A DNA stretch of 64,000 nucleotides from Anaeromyxobacter paludicola (GTDB taxonomy: Bacteria; Myxococcota; Myxococcia; Myxococcales; Anaeromyxobacteraceae), in the NCBI RefSeq assembly GCF_023169965.1, contig NZ_AP025592.1:744001-808000 (forward strand), given 5' to 3'. The position numbers were made by a program, and so were the translations under genes. How positions within the stretch are numbered: position 1 is the stretch's first letter; each line of letters opens with the position of its first letter. This document shows positions 13,738 through 62,984 of this stretch, piece by piece. The notes under the pieces are model-generated. The model was not told the DNA's origin, ran no database searches, and saw only the letters and a program-made list of their open reading frames with translations.

Positions 13738-13842
13738 TGGCGGTAGAGCAGGGGAATCGAACCCCCCAACAGCGCCTCTCAGCACCATTCACCGGTTTTG
13801 AAGACCGGGCCCGGCACCAGCCTGGGAAGCCCTACCACCGCC
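13738..13842 (-). tRNA. selC: tRNA-Sec (anticodon TCA)
   Basis: Read on the minus strand: an 8-bp acceptor stem GGCGGTGG/CTACCGCC (one G-U), an anticodon stem-loop CCGGT-CTTCAAA-ACCGG with anticodon TCA at 13799-13801, a long variable arm (about 13760-13785) and a T-arm with GGTTCGATT. An 8-bp acceptor, extended variable arm and UCA anticodon together are diagnostic of selenocysteine tRNA. No CCA is encoded. Its presence means the host decodes some UGA codons as selenocysteine; selA, selB and selD are not in this window. End points are good to a few bases. Confidence 0.9.
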
Positions 13843-50350: not shown

Positions 50351-50378
50351 GAGTCCGATAATATGGATTTACTACCGC
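50351..50378 (+). repeat. attL: hybrid dif site
   Basis: Shares the 19-bp core GAGTCCGATAATATGGATT (50351-50369) with the right end. The right arm here, TTTACTACCGC, departs from the usual XerD arm, so this arm is virus-derived. The left arm is chromosomal. Confidence 0.75.
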
Positions 50379-50421
50379 AAATACGGGCTTGTAGGCAAGC
50401 CCTCCCCTGCTGGACAGCTAC

Positions 50422-50574
50422 GCCGCTGCGAGACGGCATCGCACACCCCAAAAAGCAAGGCCCCTGCTCCGAGCTCGCAGACTCGGTGGAGGGGCCCTGC
50501 AGGCTTCGGAGGACGTGTCCGCGTCCGCCCTCAGCCATGCTTCGGATCTTGTAACCCTGGCCGCTGCGAGACGG
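50422..50574. repeat. 15-bp direct repeat pair at the provirus left end
   Basis: GCCGCTGCGAGACGG occurs at 50422-50436 and exactly again at 50560-50574, flanking the terminator hairpin. Exact repeats this long are unlikely by chance in 300 bp; possible Rep-binding iterons. Confidence 0.6.
50450..50500 (-). terminator. Intrinsic terminator of the viral structural operon
   Basis: On the minus strand a 46-nt hairpin (GCA/TGC, GGCCCCT/AGGGGCC and CCGAG/CTCGG paired segments) is followed at once by TTTTT. It lies 177 bp past the last structural gene and points the right way to end that transcript. Confidence 0.7.
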
Positions 50575-50598
50575 TAGGGGGTGAGGCGGGGCGCTTCT

Positions 50599-50648
50599 TT
50601 CGGGCCGGACAGCCCGAACTCCGCGGACAATATTCGGGCCGCCCGAAT
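50599..50648. promoter_or_regulatory. Two related inverted repeats
   Basis: TTCGGGC and GCCCGAA with a 6-bp gap (50599-50618), then the near-perfect palindrome ATTCGGGCCGCCCGAAT (50632-50648). The same half-site twice suggests binding sites for a dimeric protein or paired cruciforms in the viral 3' region. Confidence 0.5.
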
Positions 50649-50676
50649 TGGTCAAGCTCATTGCCGAGCCCCCTGT

Positions 50677-51072
50677 TCAGAGCGGCCGGTAGGAGGTCGC
50701 GGCGGCCTTGTCCGGCGGCGCGCCGATCGAGAACATCCTGATACCGCCCGTGAACCGGGCGACGTCCTGAGCGATGCCGGTCCCGAAGTCCTTGCCGGTG
50801 GTCGGGCCGGTCGCGGGGGCCGCCGGCGTCTGCGCCGTCTGCATCGGGAGGCGCACGCCGATGTCGGAGCCGCCGTTGGAGGCGATCGCCCCCAGCAGGC
50901 CTGGCGCCGCGCTCGAGGCGACGCCGCCGGCGAGCTCGAGGAGCTGCCCGGCGCCGGAGCTGAGCGCGGAGCTCGTGCTCGAGGTGGCCGCGGCCGGCGC
51001 GGTGCGCTGGGCGGCGCGCTTCTTCCCGAACCACCAGGTCATGCCGACGACGGCGAGCGGAAGGACGAACAC
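50677..51072 (-). CDS. Viral small membrane protein (last structural gene)
   Basis: 131 aa. N-terminal membrane segment MFVLPLAVVGMTWWFGKK, then a basic step (KKRAAQR), an Ala/Ser-rich region and a C-terminal part with RMFSIGAPPDKAAATSYRPL. No family recognised. A one-helix protein of this kind fits an internal-membrane component or lysis/entry protein of the virion. The gene is followed only by untranslated DNA and the terminator. Confidence 0.6.
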   Translation of the reverse strand: MFVLPLAVVGMTWWFGKKRAAQRTAPAAATSSTSSALSSGAGQLLELAGGVASSAAPGLLGAIASNGGSDIGVRLPMQTAQTPAAPATGPTTGKDFGTGIAQDVARFTGGIRMFSIGAPPDKAAATSYRPL

Positions 51073-51081
51073 GGGGGCACC

Positions 51082-51645
51082 TCAGTTCGCGACGAAGAGG
51101 ACGAGGGCGCCGAGCGCCAGGAGGGCCAGGATCGCCGTGCCGGAGACCTGGGGCTGCTCCTGGACGGCGACGGTGGTGGTGGGAGCGTCGGTGGCGCCGG
51201 TGACGATGCCGGCGGCCTTCCCCGCGGCGCTGACGACGCCGCCGAGCTGGGCGGCGGTCTGCAGCGCGCCGCCGATGCCGCCGGCGGCGCCCGCGCCGGC
51301 GCTGGCCACGCCGCCGATGGAGCTCAGCACGCCGGCGGCGCTCACCGTGCCGTCGGCCGCGACGGTGCCGGTGGCGATGACGGGGATCGCCTCCGGCACG
51401 GCGCTGGCGGGCACGAGCGCGGCCTCGGGGATGGCGGCGAGCTCGGGCACGGAGTCGATGGCGGCGATCGCGCCCTCGCCGGCCGCGCCCGCGGCGGCGC
51501 CTCCGGCGAGGGTGCCGACAGCGATCGGCCCGCCGAGCATCACCGCGGTGACGCCGACGACCTTCAGGTAGTCGCCGAAGTCCGCGTAGGTGGGCGAGTC
51601 GAGCTCCGGTCGCATCAGCCCGGCGCCGCCGTCGAGCTTGTTCAT
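51082..51645 (-). CDS. Viral Gly/Ala-rich membrane protein
   Basis: 187 aa. Soluble start, then a hydrophobic Gly/Ala-rich stretch (VVGVTAVMLGGPIAVGTLAGGAAAGAAGEG), more Gly/Ala segments (SSIGGVASAGAGAAGGIGGALQ) and a clear C-terminal helix ILALLALGALVLFV. No family recognised. Composition and position match structural membrane proteins of tailless viruses. Confidence 0.6.
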   Translation of the reverse strand: MNKLDGGAGLMRPELDSPTYADFGDYLKVVGVTAVMLGGPIAVGTLAGGAAAGAAGEGAIAAIDSVPELAAIPEAALVPASAVPEAIPVIATGTVAADGTVSAAGVLSSIGGVASAGAGAAGGIGGALQTAAQLGGVVSAAGKAAGIVTGATDAPTTTVAVQEQPQVSGTAILALLALGALVLFVAN

Positions 51646-51654
51646 GACGAGCTC

Positions 51655-51930
51655 CTAGCCGCGGCCGAGCATGTAGCCGACGAGGAACGGCGTCCCGAGG
51701 ACGACGAGCACGGCGCCGATGAGCGGCAGCGGCGAGTACTCCGCCGGCGGCTCGCCCCAGGGGGACGAGGTCTGGTCGCCGAGCGGGGTCCGCACCGTGA
51801 TCTTGGGCGCGGCGAACCGCATGATGAGGTCGGCCAGCGGGCTCCCGGGCGTGCTGGCCGAGCTCGGGTCCACCACGATGGGCGGGAGGATCCGGCTGTC
51901 GATCTCGAGGGTGAGCAGGCCGTCGGACAT
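51655..51930 (-). CDS. Viral protein with C-terminal membrane helix
   Basis: 91 aa. Soluble N-terminal part (LTLEIDSRILPPIVVDPSS...) and a C-terminal anchor LPLIGAVLVVLGTPFLVGYMLG. Two bases separate it from the next small gene. Possibly a capsid-to-membrane linker, with the soluble part reaching the shell (inference). Confidence 0.6.
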   Translation of the reverse strand: MSDGLLTLEIDSRILPPIVVDPSSASTPGSPLADLIMRFAAPKITVRTPLGDQTSSPWGEPPAEYSPLPLIGAVLVVLGTPFLVGYMLGRG

Positions 51931-51932
51931 GG

Positions 51933-52142
51933 CTACCGCACCTGGTACGGCGGGGTCGTGGTGATCACGTTCTGCGGCTGCGCGCCGGCGGTGCCGCCGG
52001 AGATCACGCCGCCGCCGGCGAGGATGGGGGCGAGGATCGCGGCGGCCTTGTAGGCGAGGGTCCAGGGGGCGGCGAAGGCCAGAACGCCAGAGCAGACGAG
52101 GCCGATGCCGAAGGCGAGCTTCTTGAACAGGTCGGAGTTCAT
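51933..52142 (-). CDS. Viral two-helix membrane protein
   Basis: 69 aa. Two hydrophobic stretches, LAFGIGLVCSGVLAFAAPWTLAY and AAAILAPILAGGGVISGG, then a polar tail. Holin-like in size and layout, which would fit the transglycosylase encoded upstream, but no holin family was recognised. Confidence 0.55.
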   Translation of the reverse strand: MNSDLFKKLAFGIGLVCSGVLAFAAPWTLAYKAAAILAPILAGGGVISGGTAGAQPQNVITTTPPYQVR

Positions 52143-52160
52143 GCGGTGCTCCTTGGGGGA

Positions 52161-52343
52161 CTACGGGTCGGTCATGAGCCGCTCGGCGAGCTGCGCGCCG
52201 GGGCAGGTCTTGCGGTGAAGCTCGAGCTGCTTGCGGACGAGGGAGGCGCGGACCTGCTTGCCGAGGAAGGCGCCCAGGAAGGCGCCAACGAGTGGACCCC
52301 AGCGCGGCGCGGACTCGGAGAGGGCGATGAGGAAGGCCGGCAT
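52161..52343 (-). CDS. Viral 60-aa small protein
   Basis: 60 aa, too short to stand out alone, but supported by an ATGA overlap with the spike gene stop. Hydrophobic N-terminal half (PLVGAFLGAFLG) and a basic C-terminal half (KQVRASLVRKQLELHRKTC). Function unknown. Confidence 0.55.
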   Translation of the reverse strand: MPAFLIALSESAPRWGPLVGAFLGAFLGKQVRASLVRKQLELHRKTCPGAQLAERLMTDP

Positions 52344-54010
52344 CAGTACCCCGCGGAGTTGGTCAGGCCGAGGCTGAGGGCGGTGAGGTCGTAGTCGGCC
52401 TCGTAGTCGGCTCCGGCGGAGAGAGCCCAGTCCGCGGAGCCGTTGGCGGTGCGGGTGTCGCCGCTGCGGACCTGGCCGGCGAAGGTGGGCGCGGTGGTCG
52501 TGCTGTGCGTGTCCTGGCTCGAGGCGGTCACGTAGGCCGAGACCGAGGAGTAGTAGGTGCCGTTCCAGGTCACCGCGAGGGTGTTGGCCGAGAAGGCGTT
52601 GTAGTCGGAGGAGAGGGTGGTGCCAGCGGCGGCCTGGATGGCGTCGCGGCCGCCCGAGAAGATGTTGTTCTTGACGGTGAGCGAGCCCGTGTCGGTCTTG
52701 ATCGCGACGAAGGGGAAGCCCGTCGTGTCCACCCAGACGAAGGTGCAGCGCTGGACGTCCACGGTGCCGTTGGCCCAGACGAGCGCGCCGCTCGCCGTTC
52801 GGGCGATGATCCGAACGCCGCGCATCACCAGCGTGGTCGAGGCGGACGGGTTGACGGCGCGGTTCATCAGCGTGCCGTCGGCGGCGTAGGTGTAGCCGTT
52901 GAGGACGCCGCCGATGATCCACACTTTGTCGGCGCCGGAGGTGATGCCCTGGGTGCAGCGGTACGTCTTGCACCGGAGGTAGAGCACGCGGGCCGCGTTG
53001 ATGCCCGAGAAGCCGCCGGAGAGCCCGATCGCCTCGCAGTCCTCGAAGACCATTCGGGCGTGCTTGTAGGAGCCGCCGGAGGTGTGGAAGTAGAAGCCGA
53101 GCGTGCCGCTGGGGGTGGAGGCGATCGCCTTGCAGCGGCGGTAGACCGCCCCTCCGTCGCCGTAGTCGGAGTACGTGACGAACATCGTCGCGGCGCCGGC
53201 GCTCGCGTAGCCCTCGTTCTTCCAGGCGATGCAGTCCTCGGCCGTGCCGGCGTTCCAGAAATTGTGGACCGTCCCGTCTTCGGCGACGCAGTCGCGCGCC
53301 GTGCCGTAGTTGAGCAGGGAGCCGTTGTTGTGCCCCTGGCGCCGGGTGTGGACGCTGACTTCCGTCCCGCCGATCGCCCCCGAGAGGCCGAAGTTGCGCC
53401 GGCTGATCTCGTAGAGGTGCCCGTCGCTTGGAACGGCCGTGCTCCCCACGGCGTTGACATACACGGTGTCGGTGCCGGTGCCGCTGACCACCGCATAGAA
53501 GCTGCCGGGCGTGGCGTCGCAGTTGGCGATGCTCGTGGCGCGCACGAGGCGGGCGCCGTCCTCCCAGACGCTGATCTTCGTCTTGGCGGAGTCGGCGAGC
53601 GAGCTCGTCCAGGTGACCTGGTAGACGTTGGTGTAGCCGCCGGTCTTGGTGAACCCGGCGTTTGCCGCGACGTCCGCTCCGTCGAGCACCGGGCGGGCTC
53701 CCTGGCCGAAGGCTGCCACGCTGGTGCCGATCGGCAGGCTGGAGAGCTCCTCGCGCCAGTAGCCGCCGCGCGCCAGGTAGACGGTTCCGCCGACGGAGAG
53801 GGGCTTGGCCTTCACCGCGGCGATCGTGGCGAGCGCGGTGGAGGGCTTCAGGCCGTCGTTACTGTCGGAGCCGTTGACCGAGTCCACGTAGAACGCGGTG
53901 GGGGCGTAGAGGGTGAAGACCTTGGGCTGCGACGCGGGCCGGAACTGCGCCAGCGCCAGGCCGGGCAGGAGAACGGCGAGCAGGGGCAGGAAGCGGCGGA
54001 GCGAGTGCAT
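52343..54010 (-). CDS. Secreted beta-helix protein, candidate receptor-binding spike
   Basis: 555 aa from ATG 54010, one base overlapping the previous stop. Signal peptide residues 1-22 (RRFLPLLAVLLPGLALAQ). Then FYVDSVNGSDSNDGLKPSTALATIAAVKA, the standard opening of right-handed beta-helix (pectate-lyase-like) surface proteins, followed by about 16 repetitive rungs such as YRRCKAIASTPSGTLGFYFHTSGGSYKHARMVFEDCEAIG. Beta-helices are common in phage tailspikes that bind or cut polysaccharide. The signal peptide is odd for a virion protein made in the cytoplasm, so it may pass the envelope before assembly or modify the host surface. Confidence 0.65.
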   Translation of the reverse strand: MHSLRRFLPLLAVLLPGLALAQFRPASQPKVFTLYAPTAFYVDSVNGSDSNDGLKPSTALATIAAVKAKPLSVGGTVYLARGGYWREELSSLPIGTSVAAFGQGARPVLDGADVAANAGFTKTGGYTNVYQVTWTSSLADSAKTKISVWEDGARLVRATSIANCDATPGSFYAVVSGTGTDTVYVNAVGSTAVPSDGHLYEISRRNFGLSGAIGGTEVSVHTRRQGHNNGSLLNYGTARDCVAEDGTVHNFWNAGTAEDCIAWKNEGYASAGAATMFVTYSDYGDGGAVYRRCKAIASTPSGTLGFYFHTSGGSYKHARMVFEDCEAIGLSGGFSGINAARVLYLRCKTYRCTQGITSGADKVWIIGGVLNGYTYAADGTLMNRAVNPSASTTLVMRGVRIIARTASGALVWANGTVDVQRCTFVWVDTTGFPFVAIKTDTGSLTVKNNIFSGGRDAIQAAAGTTLSSDYNAFSANTLAVTWNGTYYSSVSAYVTASSQDTHSTTTAPTFAGQVRSGDTRTANGSADWALSAGADYEADYDLTALSLGLTNSAGY

Positions 54011-54897
54011 TACCGGCCCTCCACGTGGATGCCGATTTGGGTCACGCCCGTGCCGGCGCGAGAGGGCAGGGTGAATCCGAGGACGTCGGCGCCGACGGGG
54101 ACGTCGAGATCGAACACGAGGCTGGTTTGGGAGACCGCCAGGTCGGAGGCGCCGCCCGGCACCCAGAGCGACTGCTGCGCCGGGTCGGAGAGGCGGGGGT
54201 CGTCCACGTCGAAGCCGTTGGTGTACGTGACCAGGCCGATGGGGTTCACGTACACCTGGAAGTACGGGAGCAGCTTCCAGAGCCGGATCGTGGCGGCGAG
54301 GTCGGCCGGTCGGAGCATTGCCGCCGGGTCGGCCGCGGCGCCCGAGCTCGGCACGACGGTGACGCGGAGCGATTTCAGGCCGCTCGTGACGACGGCCACC
54401 GGCGGGTTGCCGGCGTTCGGGTCGGCGGCGGTGAGGGTGGCGCAGCCCAGCAGCTCCTGCACGCGGGCGCGGCCGGCGCGCTGCGGGTCGAAGGTCGGCC
54501 GGAAGCCGAGCTCGGTCCCGACGAGGAAGCCGACGTAGCCGAGCTGGGGGCCCGCGGCGTCGCCGAACCGAGCCCAGAGGCCGACGGGGTTCCAGGCCTG
54601 GAAGCTTGAGCAGCCCTGGGGCACCGGGAGCGTCTCGCCGGGGCGGAGCAGCACCGGGTTGCCGGAGCCGTTCGGATCGACGGCCATCACCACGCCGGGC
54701 GTCGTGTACTCGGGGTCGAGGGTGATGGAGTACACCGCGCCGCCGCAGTCCACGCGGACGCCGGGCGCCTGGCGCACGGCCGGAACGGCGGCGGTGCCCC
54801 AGGCGGCGTAGCTCGTCTTCCCTCGCTTGAGGCTGGGGTCGTCGGGCAGGAAGACGCGGCGGAAGGTGGGGGGCGCGTTCTGGCGGATCTCGGGCAT
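54010..54897 (-). CDS. Viral structural protein of unknown class (possible penton/minor capsid)
   Basis: 295 aa, soluble, strongly beta-like: RVDCGGAVYSITLDPEYTTPGVVMAVDPNGSGNPVLLRPGETLPVP and the C-terminal SLVFDLDVPVGADVLGFTLPSRAGTGVTQIGIHVEG. No signal peptide or membrane helix. Lies between transglycosylase and spike. The size and fold type would suit a vertex (penton) jelly-roll protein holding the spike; only structure comparison could show this. Confidence 0.45.
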   Translation of the reverse strand: MPEIRQNAPPTFRRVFLPDDPSLKRGKTSYAAWGTAAVPAVRQAPGVRVDCGGAVYSITLDPEYTTPGVVMAVDPNGSGNPVLLRPGETLPVPQGCSSFQAWNPVGLWARFGDAAGPQLGYVGFLVGTELGFRPTFDPQRAGRARVQELLGCATLTAADPNAGNPPVAVVTSGLKSLRVTVVPSSGAAADPAAMLRPADLAATIRLWKLLPYFQVYVNPIGLVTYTNGFDVDDPRLSDPAQQSLWVPGGASDLAVSQTSLVFDLDVPVGADVLGFTLPSRAGTGVTQIGIHVEGR

Positions 54898-54900
54898 GGC

Positions 54901-55488
54901 TCAGCTCTCGGCGTCCTGGCTGTCGGGGTACATGGCGGCTTCGGTGGCGAGCGCCTTGTCTTGGTAGATGGAGGCCGCCGGCCCGCCGCCGTTGTACCGG
55001 CGGACGGCGTCGTACATGTCGCCGCCGGCGGCGTTGAGCTTTGCGCGCCACACGACGGCCGCGGCGTGGATGCAGAAGCTGAGGTCGGTCGCCATGGCGG
55101 CGTAGGCGGCGCGCTCCTGCGCCGCGGTGGCGCCGGCCGGCGGCGCCCAGAGCTTCAGGTCCTTGGCGGTTCCGCGGCTGACCTGGATCGGGCCGACGGA
55201 GGGGCCGACGGCCGCGTTCATGTCACCGACGGCGACGGGGTTGCCGTGCGACTCCACCCAGATCTGGCTCATGAGGAGCCGGGCGATCTCGACCTGGGTG
55301 GCGGTGTCGTAGTCCCAGAAGACGCGGAGCACTTCGCGGCACACGAGCTCGCGGAAGGGCTCCAGCTCGGGGTGGACGCTCTGGGCGGTGGACTCGTAGA
55401 TGTCCTTCACCTTCTTGCCTCCCCAGAGGATCGCCGCGAGCAGGGCGCCGCCGGCGAGCCACCAGACCCAGCGGTCAGCGCCCTTCAT
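54901..55488 (-). CDS. Membrane-anchored lytic transglycosylase
   Basis: 195 aa. N-terminal helix WVWWLAGGALLAAILWGG, then an SLT (Slt/goose-lysozyme-like) domain with catalytic Glu79 in SQIWVESHGNPVAVGD, VGPIQVSRGTAKDL and the late VRRYNGGG. Role: cuts peptidoglycan during DNA entry or exit. A virion- or membrane-bound transglycosylase occurs in PRD1-like and other membrane viruses. Four bases separate it from the next viral gene downstream. Confidence 0.75.
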   Translation of the reverse strand: MKGADRWVWWLAGGALLAAILWGGKKVKDIYESTAQSVHPELEPFRELVCREVLRVFWDYDTATQVEIARLLMSQIWVESHGNPVAVGDMNAAVGPSVGPIQVSRGTAKDLKLWAPPAGATAAQERAAYAAMATDLSFCIHAAAVVWRAKLNAAGGDMYDAVRRYNGGGPAASIYQDKALATEAAMYPDSQDAES

Positions 55489-55497
55489 CGCCGGCTC

Positions 55498-55596
55498 CTA
55501 CGCCGACTTCTTCATGAAGCCGTAGACGGTGAGGCCGAGGGTGAGCGCGGCCGCCGCGAACACGATCATGCCGCCGTACTTGCCGAAGGGGATCAT
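55498..55596 (-). CDS. Viral 32-aa single-helix protein
   Basis: 32 aa, below the size of most gene callers. GAGTGTCCC precedes ATG 55596. MIVFAAAALTLGLTVYGF is a full-length membrane helix ended by FMKKSA. One-helix miniproteins are abundant in the internal membranes of tailless viruses. No family. Confidence 0.6.
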   Translation of the reverse strand: MIPFGKYGGMIVFAAAALTLGLTVYGFMKKSA

Positions 55597-55618
55597 GGGA
55601 CACTCCTTGACTGCGGGT

Positions 55619-56113
55619 TTAGCCTGCGGAGACGACGCCGGCGCGGACCTTCAGCCCGCTCCGGGTGAGGAGGTAGATGAGCCCGGCCGCGACCACCCCG
55701 AGGATGATGAGGGGCTTCGCGACGCCGAGCGAGGCGGAGCCGAGCACGTCGCCGGCGGTGTCGGCCACGGTCTCGGCGACGTGCCCGACGCCCTGGACGG
55801 CGTCGGTCACGACGGTGCTGAGCGAGGTCGGGAAGCTCGCCAGGAACGCGGCCGCTCGAGCGGAGAGCGTGGCGTCGTTGGCGAGGTCGGCGATCTCGCG
55901 GGCGTTCTGCGCGATTTTCCGGCCGGTCTGCTGCCAGGCCGAGAGCTTCGCGGAGTCCTGCGCCGCCGCGTCGGCGAGCTGCTCCCAGTACAAGGCCGAG
56001 GAGTGCCAGGAGTCCACCATGTCGTGGATCCGCTCGTCGGACTGGTACTGGGGCAGAGCGAACAGACCGTCGTTCACCTGCACCATGGCGGCGATCTGTT
56101 CGCTCTGCGTCAT
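55619..56113 (-). CDS. Viral helical protein with C-terminal membrane anchor
   Basis: 164 aa. Helical soluble body (residues 1-100, YQSDERIHDMVDSWHSSALYWEQLADAAAQDSAKL) and a membrane helix at about 132-150 (ASLGVAKPLIILGVVAAGLIYLL) with a short basic tail. Suggests a tail-anchored structural protein. No family. Confidence 0.6.
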   Translation of the reverse strand: MTQSEQIAAMVQVNDGLFALPQYQSDERIHDMVDSWHSSALYWEQLADAAAQDSAKLSAWQQTGRKIAQNAREIADLANDATLSARAAAFLASFPTSLSTVVTDAVQGVGHVAETVADTAGDVLGSASLGVAKPLIILGVVAAGLIYLLTRSGLKVRAGVVSAG

Positions 56114-56117
56114 GCGC

Positions 56118-56327
56118 TCACTCGTCGGAGGTGAGGTTGCCGATCGCGTTGAGGATGCTCGAGGCGGCGTTGCCGGCGGCCTGGACGGTGCCGGGCACGG
56201 CGCTGAAGGTGCCGCCGAAGAGCGTGGAGCCGGGGGCCGGCAGGAGGGTGGTGGTCGAGGGCTTCAGCAGGAAGTACGCGACCACCACGCCGCCGACGCC
56301 GAGCAGGATGAGCGTGCGCGGCTTCAC
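56118..56327 (-). CDS. Viral small membrane protein next to the capsid gene
   Basis: 69 aa. N-terminal helix LILLGVGGVVVAYFLL then a polar, Gly/Ser-rich stretch ending NLTSDE. It starts 3 bp after the capsid-candidate stop. Possible minor membrane structural protein. Confidence 0.6.
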   Translation of the reverse strand: MKPRTLILLGVGGVVVAYFLLKPSTTTLLPAPGSTLFGGTFSAVPGTVQAAGNAASSILNAIGNLTSDE

Positions 56328-56330
56328 GGG

Positions 56331-57449
56331 CTACCCCTTGTGCTGCAGCGGGAGGTACTGCGCCAGGCGCTGCGAGCTCGAGGTGGAACCGTCGGCCGTC
56401 TTGATGTCGAACGAGCCGGACGGGCGGGGGAAGCCGAGCTGGGCGTTCGCCTGCTGGCGCTGCGCCTCGGTGCGCGGCGGGACCGAGCGCCAGCCGACGC
56501 GGAACGCGGTCTTCGAGCCGGTGACGTCGATCACCAGGTTCTTGTTGACCTGGAGGCAGCGGCTCAGGCCGTAGCGCGGGGGCGGGGTGAGGAGCGGAAT
56601 CCACGGCACGGAGACCGTGTTGGCGGCGCCGTTGCCCACGAGCGGGTCGTCCGGCAGGGCCTCGCCGGCCACGGGCGCGGTGGCGCTGTTCACCTGCAGC
56701 GAGCCGCCTTCGGCGTTGAGCCAGTCGAAGTAGCGGACGAGGTCGGCGAGTCGGACCGGGAGGTTCGAGAGCACCTGGCCGTCGGCGGTGAGCTGCACCG
56801 TCGAGACCTGGGTGTCGTCGATCGAGGAGCCGTCCTCGTTGAAGATGGCGAGGTGCGTGTACAGCCGCGACCCCTCGATCACGATGTGCTGGCCGTTCCA
56901 GTCGAGCTTGCCGATCTCGACGTCGGAGGGGAGCACGAGCGGCGAGGCCGGCTCGTTCACGAGGTAGGTGGTGAGCGTGCCGGTGATGCTGGCGACGTTC
57001 GGGAAGAGGCTCGGCAGGTCGCTGAAGTCGATGCTCAGCGGCTTCTGCGCGAAGAGCTCGGGGCGCATGGCGCTGTCGCCGGGGCTCGCGGCGCGCGGGT
57101 CGGAGAAGGGGATCATGACCGCGACGCGCCGGTTGAAGACGCCGGCGTTCGTGGCGGGCACGTCGGCCGGCTGGGAGAACTGCAGGCCGCGCACGTGGTG
57201 GCTCAGGATCCGGAAGTGCTGCCCGGTCGAGAGGATCTTGTCGCCGAGCTGGATGTTCTTGAAGATGCGGTGCAGCTGCTCGCCGGCGATGGCGACGGCG
57301 GCGCCGCCCTGGGTGATGACCAGGTCGAGGACGGCCATGATGGCCGGGGCGCGAACGCCCTGGGGGGTCTCCTTGAGGGAGACCTGGATCGACCCCGGCA
57401 TCGCCAGGGCCTTCTGCTCGAGCTTGAAGAAGGACTGACCACGGAACAT
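56331..57449 (-). CDS. Candidate major capsid protein
   Basis: 372 aa from ATG 57449. Soluble, long alternating hydrophobic/polar stretches suggesting beta strands: GSIQVSLKETPQGVRAPAIMAVLDLVITQGG near the start and ASITGTLTTYLVNEPASPLVLPSDVEIGKLDWNGQHIVIEGSRLYTHLAIFN in the middle, with Pro/Gly-rich turns. No HK97-type, portal or protease companion. It is the largest soluble protein in the block with ATPase and small membrane proteins, as expected for a major capsid protein; size suits a double jelly-roll (PM2 P2 is about 270 aa, PRD1 P3 about 395). Assignment is by context and composition; structure prediction would test it. Confidence 0.55.
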   Translation of the reverse strand: MFRGQSFFKLEQKALAMPGSIQVSLKETPQGVRAPAIMAVLDLVITQGGAAVAIAGEQLHRIFKNIQLGDKILSTGQHFRILSHHVRGLQFSQPADVPATNAGVFNRRVAVMIPFSDPRAASPGDSAMRPELFAQKPLSIDFSDLPSLFPNVASITGTLTTYLVNEPASPLVLPSDVEIGKLDWNGQHIVIEGSRLYTHLAIFNEDGSSIDDTQVSTVQLTADGQVLSNLPVRLADLVRYFDWLNAEGGSLQVNSATAPVAGEALPDDPLVGNGAANTVSVPWIPLLTPPPRYGLSRCLQVNKNLVIDVTGSKTAFRVGWRSVPPRTEAQRQQANAQLGFPRPSGSFDIKTADGSTSSSQRLAQYLPLQHKG

Positions 57450-57460
57450 GGGGGCGGCTC

Positions 57461-57589
57461 CTAGGCGCTCTTCGACGCGAAGAGGGTGGAGAGGTCGAGC
57501 TTCGACTCGAGGCCGGTCGTCTTCAGGATGACGATCACGGCCACGGTCACGGCGGCACAGGTGGCGAGGGCGGCGATGTTGCGCGGCAT
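57461..57589 (-). CDS. Viral 42-aa single-helix protein
   Basis: 42 aa, too short for common gene callers. ATG 57589, ending 11 bp before the capsid candidate. ALATCAAVTVAVIVIL is a membrane helix followed by a polar tail. It might also recall an inovirus major coat peptide, but the neighbours argue for a membrane structural protein. Confidence 0.55.
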   Translation of the reverse strand: MPRNIAALATCAAVTVAVIVILKTTGLESKLDLSTLFASKSA

Positions 57590-57686
57590 GCGATGGTTCT
57601 CCTGAGTGACAAGGCACTCGAAGTGAATGCCGGCACGCTCGCACCTCAGAACGGGCGCCGCGACTTAGTGGTGAGCAAGCAGGAAG

Positions 57687-57905
57687 TCAGGTTTCAGAGC
57701 CGGCCTGGTGCTCGTTGCCGCAGCGCGGGCAGATGCAGCGCGAGCGGAGGAACGACCAGCGGTCGCGCCAGGAGCGGCGGCGCGCCTCGAGGCGGCACTC
57801 GGCGCTGCAGTAGCGCGGCGGAGCGTTGCGGCGCACCGACCACCGGAACGTGCGGCGGCACTCGGCGCAGCGGAGCGTGCGGCTACGGCCAGGTCGTGAA
57901 TGCAC
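57687..57905 (-). CDS. Viral small zinc-finger protein
   Basis: 72 aa with three cysteine pairs: CAECRR, CSAECR (CxxxC) and CPRCG near the end, and many arginines. The first pair of clusters resembles an FCS/MYM-type finger. Likely binds DNA or RNA. Starts inside the ATPase 3' end (23-bp overlap). Confidence 0.65.
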   Translation of the reverse strand: MHSRPGRSRTLRCAECRRTFRWSVRRNAPPRYCSAECRLEARRRSWRDRWSFLRSRCICPRCGNEHQAGSET

Positions 57906-58461
57906 CGACGGCCCTCGAGCTCAGGAGGCGCTGCGCGGCGAGAGCGCTGGTGGCGTCGGGGAGCCAGCCCTCGCGGTAGACCCGCTCCGCGTCCACGAAG
58001 GAGCGCAGCCGTCCGATGTAGATGCGCTGGGAGAGCGAGACCACGTCCGCCGGCAGGTTCGCCGGCCGGTGGGTGGCGAGGAGGGCATGCACGGCGCAGT
58101 TGTCGCCGGCGGCGTTGGGGATGCCGCCCTCGCCGCGCTTCAGGATCTGCAGCAGCGGGTTCTCGTGCCACTTCCCGGACCTGAAGAGCCCGTCGGCTTC
58201 GTCGTCCACCAGGACGACGTCACCGACGTCGATCGCGAGCTGCGCCACCTCGCGCGGGTCGGCGCCGGGGAACCGGCAGAACCTCGGGATGCTCTCCGCG
58301 GCGCGGAGCTGCGCCACCGTGAACGGCGCGCCATCCCAGTCGCCCGGGCGGTGCTCCACGATGAAGAACGCTCGCACGCCGGCCCGGGAGCCGTAGACGT
58401 GCGAGCGCATCAGCGTGGTTTTGCCGCAGCGCGGCTCGCCGAGGTAGAGCGCGACGCTCAC
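57883..58461 (-). CDS. FtsK/A32-like packaging ATPase
   Basis: 192 aa from GTG 58461 (GTGA overlap). Walker A GEPRCGKT (residues 8-15), Walker B VVLVDDE (82-88), then ATHRPANLP at 129-137, a pattern seen in the Zot/HerA/A32 branch (sensor and arginine-type position). Length and lack of a membrane helix favour a viral genome-packaging ATPase, as PM2 P9 or PRD1 P9, over a filamentous-phage Zot protein, which carries a membrane segment. Sits directly before the capsid block. Confidence 0.7.
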   Translation of the reverse strand: MSVALYLGEPRCGKTTLMRSHVYGSRAGVRAFFIVEHRPGDWDGAPFTVAQLRAAESIPRFCRFPGADPREVAQLAIDVGDVVLVDDEADGLFRSGKWHENPLLQILKRGEGGIPNAAGDNCAVHALLATHRPANLPADVVSLSQRIYIGRLRSFVDAERVYREGWLPDATSALAAQRLLSSRAVGAFTTWP

Positions 58462-59240
58462 GCCGCGATCGCTCCCTGGCTGTGCGGCGCCGGCGAGCTC
58501 GCGGGCGCGGCCTTCGGCTCCGGCGGCTTGTTCTTCTCCGCCTCGAGCATTTTCCAGCAGACGTAGCGGTTCACGCCGATCATCGTCAGGCCGATGGCGA
58601 GCGCGACGGCCGGGTCCATGTTGCCGCCGTACTTGTAGATCGTCTCCTCGAGCGGCGTCCGGATCGAGGTCTTCTCTTCGGCGCTCAGCGGCTGGTGCGG
58701 CGGCAGGCGCGCCGCGGCCACGTCGAGCAGGCCGAACACGAAGTCGGCCTCGCTCCGCACGCTCGCCCGGGCGGCCTCGCGCGCCGCCGGGTCTTCGGGG
58801 AGCTCCCGCCGCGCCGGCGGCGCCTCGCCAGCCTGCGCGGGCGCCGCCGGCGACGTCGCAGCGTCGGGCGGCTTGGGGGCATTCTTCGAGCCGGGCGGGC
58901 GGCCCGGCTTACGCTTCGGCGCCAGCTCCGGAGCCGGCAGGCTCGCCAGTGGGTTCGCCGTCGGGTCCGGCGCTTTCGGGAGTCTCTCGGCCGCCGCCGG
59001 CGGCGTGGTCGCCGTCGTCGGAGGGAGGGGGGTCGACGGGGTCGCCGCCGGCGGGGCCGGAGTCGTTGATCTGGAGCTCGGGGGAGGGGTTTTCCTGGCC
59101 GGCGGAGGCGTCGGCGAGGGTTTCCGGGTGGGCGTCGGGGAGGGCATCGGTGGTGGTCTCCTCGCCGAACAGGAAGTCGGCCAAGGCGGAGGAATTGCGG
59201 TTCTCAGCATCCATTTTGGAACCCCTGGAAAATCAACCAC
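58458..59240 (-). CDS. Viral AT-hook-like protein, 3' frame of a frame-disrupted gene
   Basis: Open frame of 260 aa, but only the last about 175 residues look coded. They contain KRKPGRPPGSKN (AT-hook-like DNA-binding element), an acidic/helical middle and a hydrophobic helix MDPAVALAIGLTMIGVNRYVCW near the end. The first about 85 residues are Pro/Thr-rich translation of another frame. Third-codon GC is high from about 59000 downward. The real start lies in the overlapping frame at 59214; a shift near 58988-59005 would join them into one about 250-aa protein. Confidence 0.55.
   Translation of the reverse strand: MVDFPGVPKWMLRTAIPPPWPTSCSARRPPPMPSPTPTRKPSPTPPPARKTPPPSSRSTTPAPPAATPSTPLPPTTATTPPAAAERLPKAPDPTANPLASLPAPELAPKRKPGRPPGSKNAPKPPDAATSPAAPAQAGEAPPARRELPEDPAAREAARASVRSEADFVFGLLDVAAARLPPHQPLSAEEKTSIRTPLEETIYKYGGNMDPAVALAIGLTMIGVNRYVCWKMLEAEKNKPPEPKAAPASSPAPHSQGAIAA
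58909..59214 (-). CDS. Acidic N-terminal part of the frame-disrupted viral gene
   Basis: 101 aa from ATG 59214 with AGGGG 9 nt upstream, the best start signal here. Residues 1-75 are natural-looking and acidic (MDAENRNSSALADFLFGEE...). After about residue 75 third-codon GC falls, while it rises in the overlapping frame. Likely the 5' part of one gene, joined to the AT-hook part by programmed shift or a sequence error in a GC repeat. First gene of the structural operon. Confidence 0.5.
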   Translation of the reverse strand: MDAENRNSSALADFLFGEETTTDALPDAHPETLADASAGQENPSPELQINDSGPAGGDPVDPPPSDDGDHAAGGGRETPESAGPDGEPTGEPAGSGAGAEA

Positions 59241-59305
59241 TTACAGGCGTGGGATTTTCGTTCCGAGTTTCTTCGCTCGGGAATTTCCCTCACCCACCGG
59301 AAACG
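59215..59305 (-). promoter_or_regulatory. Likely promoter region of the viral structural operon
   Basis: The only gap of over 60 bp within the viral block besides the ends. TTGACG is present on the minus strand near 59303, but the matching -10 is weak. An inverted repeat GGGAA-T-TTCCC (59279-59289) and a short hairpin CCGAG...CTCGG (59263-59280) overlap. Probably where late transcription starts and is controlled. Confidence 0.4.
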
Positions 59306-59557
59306 TCAAACGGGGCGTCCGGAAATGCTGGCGCCGCTGGCATCCACCTCGGCCTGGTCGAGCTCGAGGTCGGCGAGCGCCACCAGCACCGGCACCCCGC
59401 CGCCGCGGAGGCAGCCGAACGAGACCCGCGCCGACGGCACGCCGCCGACGTCGAGCAGCTCCAACACGTACCCGGCGCAGTGCTCGGGGAGCGGCTCGAG
59501 GCCGACCGGCGACCACTCGAGCTCGCGCTGCAGGAGGACCGGATCGCCGACTCTCAC
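59306..59557 (-). CDS. Viral 83-aa protein, last of the early operon
   Basis: 83 aa from GTG 59557, sharing GTGA with the gene before. Soluble, beta-like sequence (VLLQRELEWSPVGLEPLPEHCAGYVLELL...). No family. Translation coupling supports it as a real gene. Confidence 0.6.
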   Translation of the reverse strand: MRVGDPVLLQRELEWSPVGLEPLPEHCAGYVLELLDVGGVPSARVSFGCLRGGGVPVLVALADLELDQAEVDASGASISGRPV

Positions 59558-59853
59558 GGCCGGGACTCGAGCTGCAGCGGGGGCAGGGCAGGGGAGTCGT
59601 TCTCGGACTTTCGGCACGTCGGGCAGAGCTCGAGCCCCTCCCGGCCGAGCTGCAGCGGGAAGCGGTGGTCGCCGCACCCGTCGCAGAGCTGGCGCCGGTA
59701 GCCCGGCCGGCGCGCGCCGCCGCGGAGCTCGTGCTTGCGCTTCAGCGCGCACGGCGCCGAGCCGCAGAACACGCGGGCGCGGCCGCGGCGGTGCCGGCGC
59801 ACGGCGAAGGGCTGGTGGCAGTACGGGCAGCGGTTCAGGGTCTGGGGGGTCAC
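59554..59853 (-). CDS. Viral zinc-finger protein downstream of Rep
   Basis: 99 aa from GTG 59853 (GTGA overlap with Rep). Four cysteine pairs: CPYC (9-12), CGSAPC (30-35), CDGC (57-60), CPTC (77-80), with many arginines, so at least two zinc sites. Likely nucleic-acid binding, an accessory or regulator for replication. Confidence 0.65.
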   Translation of the reverse strand: MTPQTLNRCPYCHQPFAVRRHRRGRARVFCGSAPCALKRKHELRGGARRPGYRRQLCDGCGDHRFPLQLGREGLELCPTCRKSENDSPALPPLQLESRP

Positions 59854-61166
59854 GCTGGCGGCTCCTCGGGTGGACCTGCGGCGGACTGCTGAGCGGCGGC
59901 GAGCCGCTCGTACAGCTCGGCGGCGTCGGCGCCGTCGGCGACGATCGAGTGCTGCGCGCCGCACTTCGGGCAGACCTTCGGCGGCGGCTCGAGGCGCTTG
60001 AAGAAGTCGCCGAACCATTGAATCCACTTCGCGTTCCAGCCCGACCAGCCCGCGAAGACTCGAGCCATGTACGTGGCGTGCTCGAAGATGGCGGCCTCGT
60101 TGTCCCGGGTGTCGAACTGCACCCAGACGTCGGGCGAGCAGCGCTCGCGGTACTCGGCGCCGATGATCTGAGCCCACGCCTCGCGGAGCCTCTCGAGCTC
60201 GCCCTCGGTGAGCATGCCCCGGGGCACGTGGCCGCGGCGCCAGGCCGAGGCGTGGGCGGCGCGCTCCATCCAGAAGACGTTGAAGTGCGGCGAGAACTCG
60301 GTGGGGTCCTCGTCGCCCACCGGGTGCACGACGACGCAGGCCCAGGCGGCGTTGAGCGTCGAGCCGTGCTGCAGGAACTTCCAGAGGTTGCGGCGCACCT
60401 CGCGCACGCGCTCGGGGTCCATGAACTGCGCCCGATGCTCGGGCGGCACGGTCAGGACGGCCCGCTTCACCGACCAGAGGGAGGCGTTGGCGCCGCGAGG
60501 CGAGCGGCTGCGGGCGTCGTCGATGCTGGCCAGGATCTTCTCGGCCATCCGCTCGCCGGAGTCCCGGGAGACCACCGGGGCGCAGTAGACGCAGTCGCGG
60601 CGCTCGCACCCCTTGGTCACCAACTTGATCCCGCACAAGCACTTCACCGCCAGCTGAGTGGTCTCGCAGCGTTGCGCGCTTTTCCGTGCTTTCGAGATAA
60701 GGGAAGCAACGTCGGCGAACGCCTCCGGGTTCCACTTCGGCGCCTTCTGAATGCGCCTCGCCTTCGCTCCAACCTCGCGCCCGCAGTCGGGATCCGAGCA
60801 GTCGGACGCCATACGGTCGGTGACGACCCGCGGGCGCGCCCACCGGGCGAGCCGATTCTCAAGGCGATCGCGCGGTACGGCCCTGGCGCGGCCCAGGAAG
60901 CCCGTGCCGGCGTCGAAGGCGTCACGGGCCGCCCAGGCCGGCTCGAAGCCGCTGGCGAGCTCGGCGGCCTCCGTGGCGCGCGCCACCGCGCGCATCTCCA
61001 TCGCCTCGAGCGTCTCCCGGTGCTCGAGCTCCTCGGCCGCGTAGGCGTTCCAGGCGTAGACCTGGCGCTCCTTCGGGCCGGTGCGCTCCGGCTCCTCCCG
61101 GCGCGGCGCGCGGACGGGCCGCACCGGGAAGAGCGAGCGCTGCGGGGTAGCGGCCTCGGAGATCAC
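59850..61166 (-). CDS. HUH-like rolling-circle replication initiator (Rep)
   Basis: 438 aa. A cysteine-rich zinc region (C176, C178, C187, C192, C195; KCLCG...KGCERRDCVYC) precedes SPHFNVFW at 292-299, a HUH-type metal motif with the second His replaced by Asn, and HATYMARVF near 363-371 offers the nicking Tyr (Y366). A CPKC pair sits at 399-402. The order Zn region, HUH, Tyr resembles IS91/PM2-P12/plasmid Rep proteins of the rolling-circle class (family knowledge). Expected role: nicks one strand to start rolling-circle copying. Coupled by ATGA to the gene before. Confidence 0.65.
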   Translation of the reverse strand: MISEAATPQRSLFPVRPVRAPRREEPERTGPKERQVYAWNAYAAEELEHRETLEAMEMRAVARATEAAELASGFEPAWAARDAFDAGTGFLGRARAVPRDRLENRLARWARPRVVTDRMASDCSDPDCGREVGAKARRIQKAPKWNPEAFADVASLISKARKSAQRCETTQLAVKCLCGIKLVTKGCERRDCVYCAPVVSRDSGERMAEKILASIDDARSRSPRGANASLWSVKRAVLTVPPEHRAQFMDPERVREVRRNLWKFLQHGSTLNAAWACVVVHPVGDEDPTEFSPHFNVFWMERAAHASAWRRGHVPRGMLTEGELERLREAWAQIIGAEYRERCSPDVWVQFDTRDNEAAIFEHATYMARVFAGWSGWNAKWIQWFGDFFKRLEPPPKVCPKCGAQHSIVADGADAAELYERLAAAQQSAAGPPEEPPA

Positions 61167-61366
61167 GGCGCCGGCGGCTCCCGAGTGAGCGTCACGCGGA
61201 GCTGCTCGCCGGCGTGGAACGTGGCGAAGACCGCGTCCCCGGTGTCGTTCACGATCTCGATGAACTCGCAGGCGTACTCGATGACCTGGCGCTCGCCGTT
61301 GAGCAGGTGAACGGTGACGGGCTCTTCCGGCAGGGCGCCGAAGAGAACGAGCAGGGGATTCGTCAC
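61163..61366 (-). CDS. Viral 67-aa early protein
   Basis: 67 aa, soluble, acidic middle (VIEYACEFIEIVNDTGDAVFATFHAGEQLRVTL). No family. ATGA overlaps at both ends link it to the early operon and Rep. Confidence 0.6.
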   Translation of the reverse strand: MTNPLLVLFGALPEEPVTVHLLNGERQVIEYACEFIEIVNDTGDAVFATFHAGEQLRVTLTREPPAP

Positions 61367-61599
61367 CCGACCACCTCTTCCGGCATGCCGAGCAGCTCGC
61401 GCGCCAGCGCGTCGAGGCGAAGCGGCTTGGGGGGAGGGGACCAGCGGCGGACGACGGCGGCGAGCGCGGCCGAGAGCTCGAGCTCGCGCGCCTGACGCTC
61501 GAGCGCGGGCGCCTCGAGCACCGCCCTGTGGGCGAGCTCGAGGCGCCGCACGTCGGCGACGACCAGGTGCCGGACGTGGACCACGTCGGGCGAGCTCAC
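61363..61599 (-). CDS. Viral 78-aa early helical protein
   Basis: 78 aa from GTG 61599, where GTGA overlaps the preceding stop. Helical and Arg/Glu/Leu-rich (VADVRRLELAHRAVLEAPALERQARELELS). No family. A longer open frame upstream has no such coupling, so this start is preferred. Confidence 0.55.
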   Translation of the reverse strand: MSSPDVVHVRHLVVADVRRLELAHRAVLEAPALERQARELELSAALAAVVRRWSPPPKPLRLDALARELLGMPEEVVG

Positions 61600-61916
61600 C
61601 GCGCCCTCGTGCGGGCGGCGGGGTGGTCCGGATGGCGCGCGAAGAACGCGACGTTCATCCGCGCCACCTGCGAGCAGTACGCGCGCCAGGGCTTGATGGT
61701 GAACCAGGGGGCGAGCGCCATCAGGTGCTCCACCTCCTCGTAGCGGTCGCGCGCCTTCTCCACGTCGGCGAACGCAGAGAGGAGCTCGGCCTCGGTTCCC
61801 ACCGCGTATCGAGGCGGCGCCGGCGTCGCGGGCCGGAGCGACCACAGGACGGCAAGGGCCGACGTGATGAAGTAGACGAGGACGGTGGCGGCGGCCGCAG
61901 AGGCGAGCGCGCTCAC
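61596..61916 (-). CDS. Viral early protein with N-terminal membrane helix
   Basis: 106 aa. Helix ASAAAATVLVYFITSALAVLWSL then a helical soluble part (ADVEKARDRYEEVEHLMALAPWF). Overlaps its neighbours by ATGA and GTGA. Function unknown; an odd placement for a membrane protein amid replication genes. Confidence 0.6.
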   Translation of the reverse strand: MSALASAAAATVLVYFITSALAVLWSLRPATPAPPRYAVGTEAELLSAFADVEKARDRYEEVEHLMALAPWFTIKPWRAYCSQVARMNVAFFARHPDHPAARTRAR

Positions 61917-62107
61917 GGCGTCGGCTCCGGGTGATCGCTCCAGGCCACCGCAAAGGCCTTGAGGACGCCGCCGATCCGCTCGGCCTCCTCGGGGGTGAGG
62001 TCGCGCGGGACCGTCAACGAGCTGTCGACGGCCATGTGGCTCGAGGACTCGGCCCGCAGCGGCACCTGGTGGGTGAGCATCACGGGGTACTTCTTCGCGT
62101 CGTTCAT
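61913..62107 (-). CDS. Viral 64-aa early protein
   Basis: 64 aa from ATG 62107, with ATGA overlaps on both sides. Soluble: DSSLTVPRDLTPEEAERIGGVLKAFAVAWSD. No family recognised. Confidence 0.55.
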   Translation of the reverse strand: MNDAKKYPVMLTHQVPLRAESSSHMAVDSSLTVPRDLTPEEAERIGGVLKAFAVAWSDHPEPTP

Positions 62108-62571
62108 CGGACCCCTCCGTTCCTGGGAACTCGCTGGTGTTCCGGAACGAGCGGCTCGAGCTCGTCCGCGGTGGCCTCGTCGCCGGCGAGGACGGCGGCG
62201 AGGTAGGCAGCTCGCACGCCGTCGGCGGCGCTCTGCTCGGTCATCAGGGCGGTGGCCTGGCGCTGCGCCATCGCGTTCTCGCGGACGGCGAAGAGCTCGG
62301 CCGCGAGCGCGTCGAGCGCGAACTGGTGGCGCAGCCTGGCGGCGCGGAGCGCAGCCTCGGCGTCGGCGCGCGCGATGCTGCCGACGAGCTCGGCGCCGGC
62401 GGTCTCGGCCGCGGCGATCGCGTCGGCAAGGGCGAGCTGCACCTCGACGACCTCGGGCGGCTGAGCAGCCACCCGGGCGATGTTCACGGCGGCCGCCTTC
62501 GCGGCGCGCACGTTGTAGGAGGCCCCGGCCGCCTGGGGGGCGGCCGCGACCACGGGGCACGGGGCGCGCAT
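62104..62571 (-). CDS. Viral 155-aa helical early protein
   Basis: 155 aa, ATG 62571 with GGGAGG about 7 nt upstream. Ala-rich helices with coiled-coil character (LALADAIAAAETAGAELVGSIARADAEAALRAARLRHQFALDALAAELFAVRENAMAQRQ). Probably the first intact gene of the early operon. Possibly single-strand DNA-binding or regulatory; no family match. Confidence 0.6.
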   Translation of the reverse strand: MRAPCPVVAAAPQAAGASYNVRAAKAAAVNIARVAAQPPEVVEVQLALADAIAAAETAGAELVGSIARADAEAALRAARLRHQFALDALAAELFAVRENAMAQRQATALMTEQSAADGVRAAYLAAVLAGDEATADELEPLVPEHQRVPRNGGVR

Positions 62572-62903
62572 TTAGCGCCTCCCGTCCGGGAATTGCCGCG
62601 CAATCGGCCGGTGCGCGGCTGGATTGCGCGGAGCAAACGGGCGCGGGACCTGGTGCTCGGGGAGTCTCGCCGCGGCGGCGACGAACGGCAGGGCGCTCGT
62701 GCGGACGGTGGCGCCCACGCTCGAGCCTACAGAGCGGAGCACGCGGCGGCAGCTCGGGCAGGTTACGAGCTCGCCCGGCCGGACGCCGGCCGAACAGGCG
62801 GCGTGCGAGCTCGCGCAGGTGCCGGAGCTGCCAGGTCCCCCGCGGACTGAGGAACTGACAACTCCGGCACCCCCCCGGGACGCGAGATATCGACCCCGCG
62901 CAC
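62572..62903 (-). pseudogene. Frame-disrupted small zinc-ribbon gene at the provirus right end
   Basis: Continuous coding character is visible in three consecutive frames. From GTG 62903 a short frame leads to the seven-base homopolymer at 62870-62876; a second frame then shows CRSCQFLSPRGTWQLRHL; after a GC palindrome near 62773-62796 a third frame gives PGELVTCPSCRRVLRS and runs to TAA 62572, touching the next ATG. Joined, the CxxC and CxxC pairs would form one zinc ribbon of about 100 aa. Either two small indels or sequence errors in GC-rich runs. Also holds an exact 10-bp inverted repeat (62596-62605 and 62622-62631). Confidence 0.4.
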
Positions 62904-62933
62904 TCCCGCCCCCCGACTCGGGATTCCGGCCGG

Positions 62934-62947
62934 GGGGGTTAACCCCC
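62934..62947. repeat. Perfect 14-bp palindrome beside attR
   Basis: GGGGGTTAACCCCC, a perfect palindrome 10 bp inside the right att site. May bind a regulator or recombination factor or be part of the virus circular junction. Confidence 0.6.
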
Positions 62948-62956
62948 TGTGACCGT

Positions 62957-62984
62957 GAGTCCGATAATATGGATTATGTCAACT
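62957..62984 (+). repeat. attR: dif-like site
   Basis: Same 19-bp core as attL, followed by right arm TTATGTCAACT, which matches the proteobacterial XerD arm closely. An 11-6-11 arrangement (left arm GAGTCCGATAA, 6-bp spacer TATGGA) is that of a bacterial dif site. This arm is the chromosomal one; the left arm came from the virus. Confidence 0.75.

Follow-up and report, generated by a model that had tools for sequence, protein, structure and literature searches.

A tailspike-like beta-helix protein with a predicted signal peptide in a tailless provirus of Anaeromyxobacter paludicola

In PM2 and PhiCjT23 the penton and the spike are a single protein, as stated in the available part of PMC9719478, which also outlines a model in which such capsids form around a membrane vesicle and receive their spikes last, and which reports prophages of the PhiCjT23 group at dif. 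A few tailless Vibrio prophages at dif are likewise reported in the available part of PMC11630473. A precedent of another kind is WceF of Pantoea stewartii, described in the accessible sections of PMC7949094 as an exported glycanase of tailspike fold that carries a Tat signal, forms a trimer and is encoded in an exopolysaccharide gene cluster. The tailspikes of Ochrobactrum phage vB_OspM_OC and Caulobacter phage BL94 (gp048) are homologous to the body of the protein studied here; these are tailed phages whose tailspikes have no N-terminal leader, whereas the present protein has a leader and belongs to a tailless provirus. The window analysed was a stretch of 64,000 nucleotides of A. paludicola (NZ_AP025592.1, positions 744,001–808,000), and all coordinates below refer to it unless a locus is named. 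In the literature searched, nothing was found in print on this finding.

A tailless provirus at the host dif site

The gene of interest lies in a 12.6 kb element (50351–62984) that is flanked by dif-type repeats and sits at the host dif, the arrangement of a XerCD element. Two identical 19-nt repeats begin at 50351 and 62957, 12,606 bases apart, with a chance expectation of 0. The left copy (50351–50369) retains the XerC arm and the dif centre with a diverged XerD arm, and the right end of the element is formed by a 28-nt site (11+6+11; 62957–62984) that we take to be a complete dif by comparison with the E. coli motif. A search of 24 family genomes with a relaxed dif pattern (≤3 mismatches) found it in 22, as a single site in 21 of them and as two sites in one, so the right-end site is, from this pattern, most likely the chromosomal dif of the host. 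The window proteins scanned, a set that leaves out several small ORFs of the element, gave no integrase match, and the element appears to use host XerCD at dif; PhiCjT23-like prophages occupy dif in the same way (available part of PMC9719478). An empty-site comparison through the left flank returned scattered partial matches only. Three relatives of the element carry a tyrosine-type integrase (L008:240–1445 by a PHROG match, L013:14917–15975 and L009:5219–6487 by eye) and, set beside the apparently dif-reliant window element, suggest that the integration strategy changed within one virus group. Elsewhere in the window, ARAGORN predicted a selenocysteine tRNA gene (13738–13836).

All genes of the element named here lie on the minus strand and are given in the order in which they are read. 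A 438-aa candidate rolling-circle replication protein (59850–61166), tentatively labelled from its HFN and YMARV motifs, was found in its own genome only when 60 related genomes were searched, and the true Rep_1 protein of L013 is only weakly similar to it. A Pro/Ala-rich ORF of uncertain start with no Pfam or NCBIfam match (58458–59240) lies upstream of a 192-aa P-loop ATPase (57883–58461), a packaging candidate from profile alignments to P9. The ATPase gene overlaps by 23 nt a 72-aa Cys-rich ORF (57687–57905), weakly zinc-ribbon- or HNH-like by PHROG and Pfam matches, which stands between it and the gene of the 372-aa major capsid protein candidate (56331–57449). There follow a 69-aa membrane protein recognized by the rule scan (56118–56327), a 164-aa protein with a C-terminal membrane helix (55619–56113), a membrane-anchored, SLT-like lytic transglycosylase of 195 aa (54901–55488; Pfam SLT E 0.006, below the cut-off; PHROG lytic tail protein 2.9e-7) and a 295-aa vertex or penton candidate (54010–54897), which is conserved in L008 and L009, owes its putative role to its position and matched neither PM2 P1 nor FLiP P12 in profile comparison.

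The element is a tailless provirus and most likely has a double-jelly-roll capsid according to the model of its capsid candidate. Among the 50 matches listed for this model, many of them repeat rows, 47 were capsid or scaffold proteins of double-jelly-roll fold, with PRD1 P3 scoring highest (Z 8.1), and the remaining three were glycoside hydrolases; with a pLDDT of 52 and a whole-chain rmsd of about 19 Å, the model carries moderate weight only. In hhalign the ATPase candidate scored 84% to PM2 P9 and 74% to PRD1 P9. A PDB sequence search returned nothing up to E 10 with the capsid profile, and scattered weak P-loop and other matches only with the ATPase profile. Relatives of the capsid candidate were found in two other genomes among 145 of the order and, by profile, in three others among 195 of the phylum (L008, L009 and L013), and the group had no match by its capsid protein in the phage and viral-contig (IMG/VR) collections searched. 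L008 comprises 11,669 nt and is probably circular since its 127-nt ends are identical.

The order of ATPase, capsid protein, membrane proteins and vertex gene recalls PM2 and Vinavirales, as does the ATPase profile match to P9. PM2 differs in that its P2 is unrelated by sequence to the window capsid candidate (31 profile columns, probability 7%) and in that its spike and penton are one leaderless protein; profile comparison found no P1-type spike with penton domain, the mark of Vinavirales, in the element. In FLiP, penton and spike are separate (available part of PMC9719478). FLiP and PhiCjT23 differ from the element, whose capsid candidate has no sequence similarity to that of FLiP and which encodes a P-loop ATPase candidate and a far larger, leader-bearing protein. 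Membership of Vinavirales, Finnlakeviridae or Tectiviridae by capsid was rejected for want of a significant profile match to PM2, FLiP or PRD1, and because the capsid profiles match none of these the provirus is not filed in any named family. A tailed-phage setting was likewise rejected: the nameable neighbours point instead to a capsid of double-jelly-roll type and to an ATPase candidate resembling P9. PHROG labels the ATPase “terminase large subunit” and the transglycosylase “lytic tail protein”, and both labels are read as carry-over from tailed phages. The original prediction makes no mention of a tailless virus.

Gene, fold and leader of the beta-helix protein

The original prediction had named a beta-helix spike with a signal peptide at 52343–54010. 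The beta-helix protein and its leader are confirmed there: the CDS runs on the minus strand from an ATG at 54010 to a stop at 52343, with exact coordinates, and encodes 555 aa plus stop. Its ATG overlaps the stop of the vertex candidate gene (TAATG), a GGAGG ribosome site lies upstream, and GC at codon positions 1/2/3 is 0.57/0.55/0.96; by these features it is a real gene. A sigma-70 promoter scan, which is ill adapted to this host and was uninformative, gave no promoter-like match at the gene. Downstream on the same strand lie a 60-aa membrane protein (52161–52343), whose pattern recurs by eye in L008 and L009, a second 69-aa membrane protein from the rule scan (51933–52142), two proteins with a hydrophobic C-terminus (91 aa, 51655–51930; 187 aa and Ala/Gly-rich, 51082–51645) and a 131-aa protein with a hydrophobic N-terminus (50677–51072).

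On sequence and model evidence the body is a right-handed parallel beta-helix related to phage tailspikes. The best annotated homologue was the vB_OspM_OC tail spike (QIG65904; 27.6% over residues 40–451; tblastn E 5e-24), followed by BL94 gp048 (E 7e-20; 39.5% over residues 61–249), and the closest homologue was L031 (38% identity), from a phage-like metagenomic contig that also carries an Erf-like recombination gene. Body homologues occurred in 9 of 50,697 phage records, 16 of 72,556 plasmid records and seven IMG/VR loci, the last obtained with a four-row spike alignment as query; the window protein alone found no relatives in the viral contigs, and a search with the L031 protein returned only itself. 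Polar residues such as R86, E87, R224, D245, H249 and H309 are invariant across six homologues. The N-terminal cap had profile matches to lacto-N-biosidases (5e-7 and 7e-6), and the Pfam Beta_helix match was sub-threshold (E 0.0011; 19.1 bits vs a cut-off of 25.9). An N-terminal particle-binding domain is absent, the leader and about 15 residues being followed directly by the cap. One leaderless homologue is encoded on an Acuticoccus plasmid amid glycosyltransferase genes (L030:7923–9755).

The AlphaFold model of the protein is of low confidence (mean pLDDT 50; 60–80 across much of residues 231–490), and at that confidence it matched the Sf6 tailspike with Z 22.4 and rmsd 3.0 Å over 270 aligned residues. 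Other matches were phi29 gp12 (Z 21.8), the lacto-N-biosidase LnbX (Z 20.8) and many secreted lyases, with beta-helix proteins at Z of about 19–22; in BFVD three matches reached E ≤ 0.001 (best A0A6G6XX50), with low TM-scores. As modelled, the fold would suit virion spikes and secreted glycan enzymes alike and offers no choice between them. The tailspike-type beta-helix of the original prediction thus stands on both the tblastn and the structural matches, and the word “spike” interprets the data and is not itself observed.

A Sec signal peptide cleaved by signal peptidase I consists of n-, h- and c-regions ending in an AXA site. This layout is present at the N-terminus of the window protein (MHSLRRFLPLLAVLLPGLALA/QF), where an RR pair precedes a hydrophobic core and ALA/Q, and residues 1–21 (53948–54010, minus strand) look like a Sec-type signal peptide. 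Prediction was by a simple rule, not a trained predictor, and was positive for these residues (net charge +2; 11-residue mean hydropathy 2.6; ALA/Q). The rule was passed by 77 of 10000 shuffles of whole-protein composition and by 564 of 10000 shuffles of the protein's own N-terminal 40 residues, and a chance match is unlikely. Signal peptides and short membrane anchors look alike to it, and short membrane proteins pass too: of the 18 CDS of the element that were scanned three passed, the other two being the 69-aa membrane proteins. The same scan gave no hydrophobic N-terminus for the spike or receptor-binding proteins of PM2 and PRD1, nor for the 336-aa product of the gene behind the FLiP penton gene, in line with the earlier statement that leaders are rare on phage spikes. 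A disulfide argument was discarded, as the protein has 8 Cys and its leaderless homologues 7–16, which does not discriminate.

The slot behind the vertex gene and leaders among homologues

In the window the order is capsid, two membrane proteins, transglycosylase, vertex, exported protein and 60-aa protein; in L008 it is capsid, membrane protein, vertex, exported protein, membrane protein, 66-aa protein and transglycosylase. The predicted exported protein occurs in these two genomes, and in both its gene comes immediately after the vertex gene, although other neighbours have moved. The L008 slot encodes a 247-aa protein of unrelated body with a GGAGG start and the leader MRRSLALALAVAALTVFFVLVPPSGPAQA/QW; it matches the C-terminal domain of a phage K1-lyase weakly (E 0.0042, below the cut-off) and had no relatives in the viral contigs. 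In L009 the capsid, membrane protein and vertex genes are followed by a membrane protein gene through an overlapping ATGA-type junction; the slot is empty, and the slot gene is therefore dispensable in the group. In L013 a 130-aa leaderless protein stands behind a 321-aa protein, which the vertex profile did not match and which is called vertex by position only; the conserved vertex protein measures 253–295 aa.

The start is visible in the window protein and in six homologues (L033–L036, with starts cut off or uncertain, were excluded), and two of these seven sequences bear a leader. Besides the window protein this is L031 (N-terminus MNRREFLVTGLAAVVQG; coupled start TGATG), with a leader that we take to be twin-arginine-like and that fails the signal-peptide rule; the gene (L031:5917–7635) lies immediately behind a LamG-looking gene. 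The other five (P0001, P0002, P0003, L032 and L037) are leaderless. One body family would thus carry two different export signals, Sec-like and twin-arginine-like. Cellular Myxococcota genomes held 13 matching loci besides the window's own, mostly at the cap, and in four of them (L003, L017, L019 and L020) a lipoprotein-type leader precedes the cap; six were unreadable in the frame used (L016, L018, L022, L023, L025 and L026) and three were truncated or unclear (L021, L024 and L027).

Exported enzyme or virion spike

The original prediction offered an exported spike, an exported host-modifying enzyme or maturation at the envelope. It is partly supported, in the beta-helix, the leader and the rarity of leaders on spikes; a place in the virion and maturation at the envelope stay conjectural, and the enzyme is placed somewhat above the spike. 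In our estimate there is a little under an even chance that the protein is an accessory late product with host glycans as its target, sent out of the cell during infection. Several observations argue for this: the leader has a good start and is joined to a body related to leaderless phage tailspikes, the L008 slot protein bears a leader too, and the lipoprotein-type leaders in Myxococcota and the invariant polar residues count in the same direction. WceF is a precedent, alike in its tailspike-like right-handed beta-helix and export signal and different in being a cellular glycan enzyme with a Tat signal (available part of PMC7949094), where the window protein is viral, with a predicted Sec signal and putative glycan activity; its gene lies in an exopolysaccharide cluster, whereas the neighbours of the window gene are of capsid type. 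The constancy of the slot behind the vertex gene and the different small protein in L013 are the behaviour of a receptor-spike slot and count against an exported enzyme, as do the five leaderless sequences among the seven with visible starts and the rule failure of the L031 leader, assigned from what we take to be the twin-arginine motif.

It is possible, with somewhat less probability, that the protein is a receptor-binding spike that is exported, matures in the periplasm and joins the vertex at lysis or envelope passage as the last step of assembly. Its gene immediately follows the vertex gene with a coupled start, the different bodies in the slot of relatives are what spike swapping would produce, the K1-lyase-like match in L008, weak and below the cut-off, fits a spike, and for capsids of the PhiCjT23/PM2 type the available part of PMC9719478 has spikes added last and proposes that separate spikes are exchanged. 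A leader, however, would send the protein across the membrane from the capsid, the gene is missing in L009, the PM2 and PRD1 spikes bear no such leader, and a vertex protein of 253–295 aa could suffice by itself, given that penton and spike are one protein in PM2 (P1, 335 aa) and PhiCjT23 (283 aa). Under the published model of capsid assembly around a membrane vesicle, a leader-bearing spike would have to reach the particles once the cell has lysed or within the envelope, a step that an exported glycan enzyme does not require. The broader proposal that a tailless icosahedral lineage exports its receptor spikes by Sec, with spikes and capsids each maturing on their own side of the membrane and meeting only at lysis or envelope passage, is doubtful; alongside it stands the L031 homologue with its Tat-like leader on a phage-like contig. 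Three points put the exported glycan-acting protein above the spike: the L009 slot is empty, the leader of the closest homologue is of another kind, and export would take the protein away from the presumed place of capsid assembly.

We consider it improbable that the N-terminus is an uncleaved anchor holding a spike in the internal membrane of the virion through the vertex. Hydrophobic N-terminal segments are frequent in membrane proteins of such viruses, and the rule is also passed by two other proteins that the element encodes; the core, on the other side, is short (about 15 residues), contains two prolines and ends in ALA/Q, and a cytoplasmic RR, as the topology rule for charged residues has it, would point the body toward the periplasm or vesicle lumen and not the capsid exterior. 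Lysogenic conversion, in which the prophage's exported protein would alter the lysogen surface and block superinfection, seems just as improbable: an export leader and a glycan-type fold would suit it, but the start is coupled within a capsid gene block that should be silent in a lysogen, and the poorly suited sigma-70 scan gave no promoter-like match. A small remainder of weight goes to other readings.

For the exported glycan-acting protein we infer the following course. A tailspike-family beta-helix gene would have been acquired horizontally and placed behind the vertex gene, a Sec signal peptide replacing the particle-binding N-terminus of tailed-phage spikes. Of this, the sequence itself supplies the gene, the leader pattern, the fold family, the slot and the dif flanks. 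Translation would come late and be coupled to that of the vertex gene, and the protein would be exported by Sec and cleaved by signal peptidase I after Ala21; the folded beta-helix, probably a trimer, may then bind or cut a polysaccharide in the envelope or matrix of the host, and the benefit may be progeny exit or less re-adsorption to debris.

The finding places an export-tagged protein of the tailspike family at the vertex gene of a virus without a tail. If exported, it would be a phage-made glycan enzyme acting outside the cell before lysis; if a spike, a part of the virion that is added outside the cytoplasm. The host lineage also gains a group of capsid-bearing proviruses that the searches of phage and IMG/VR collections did not match.
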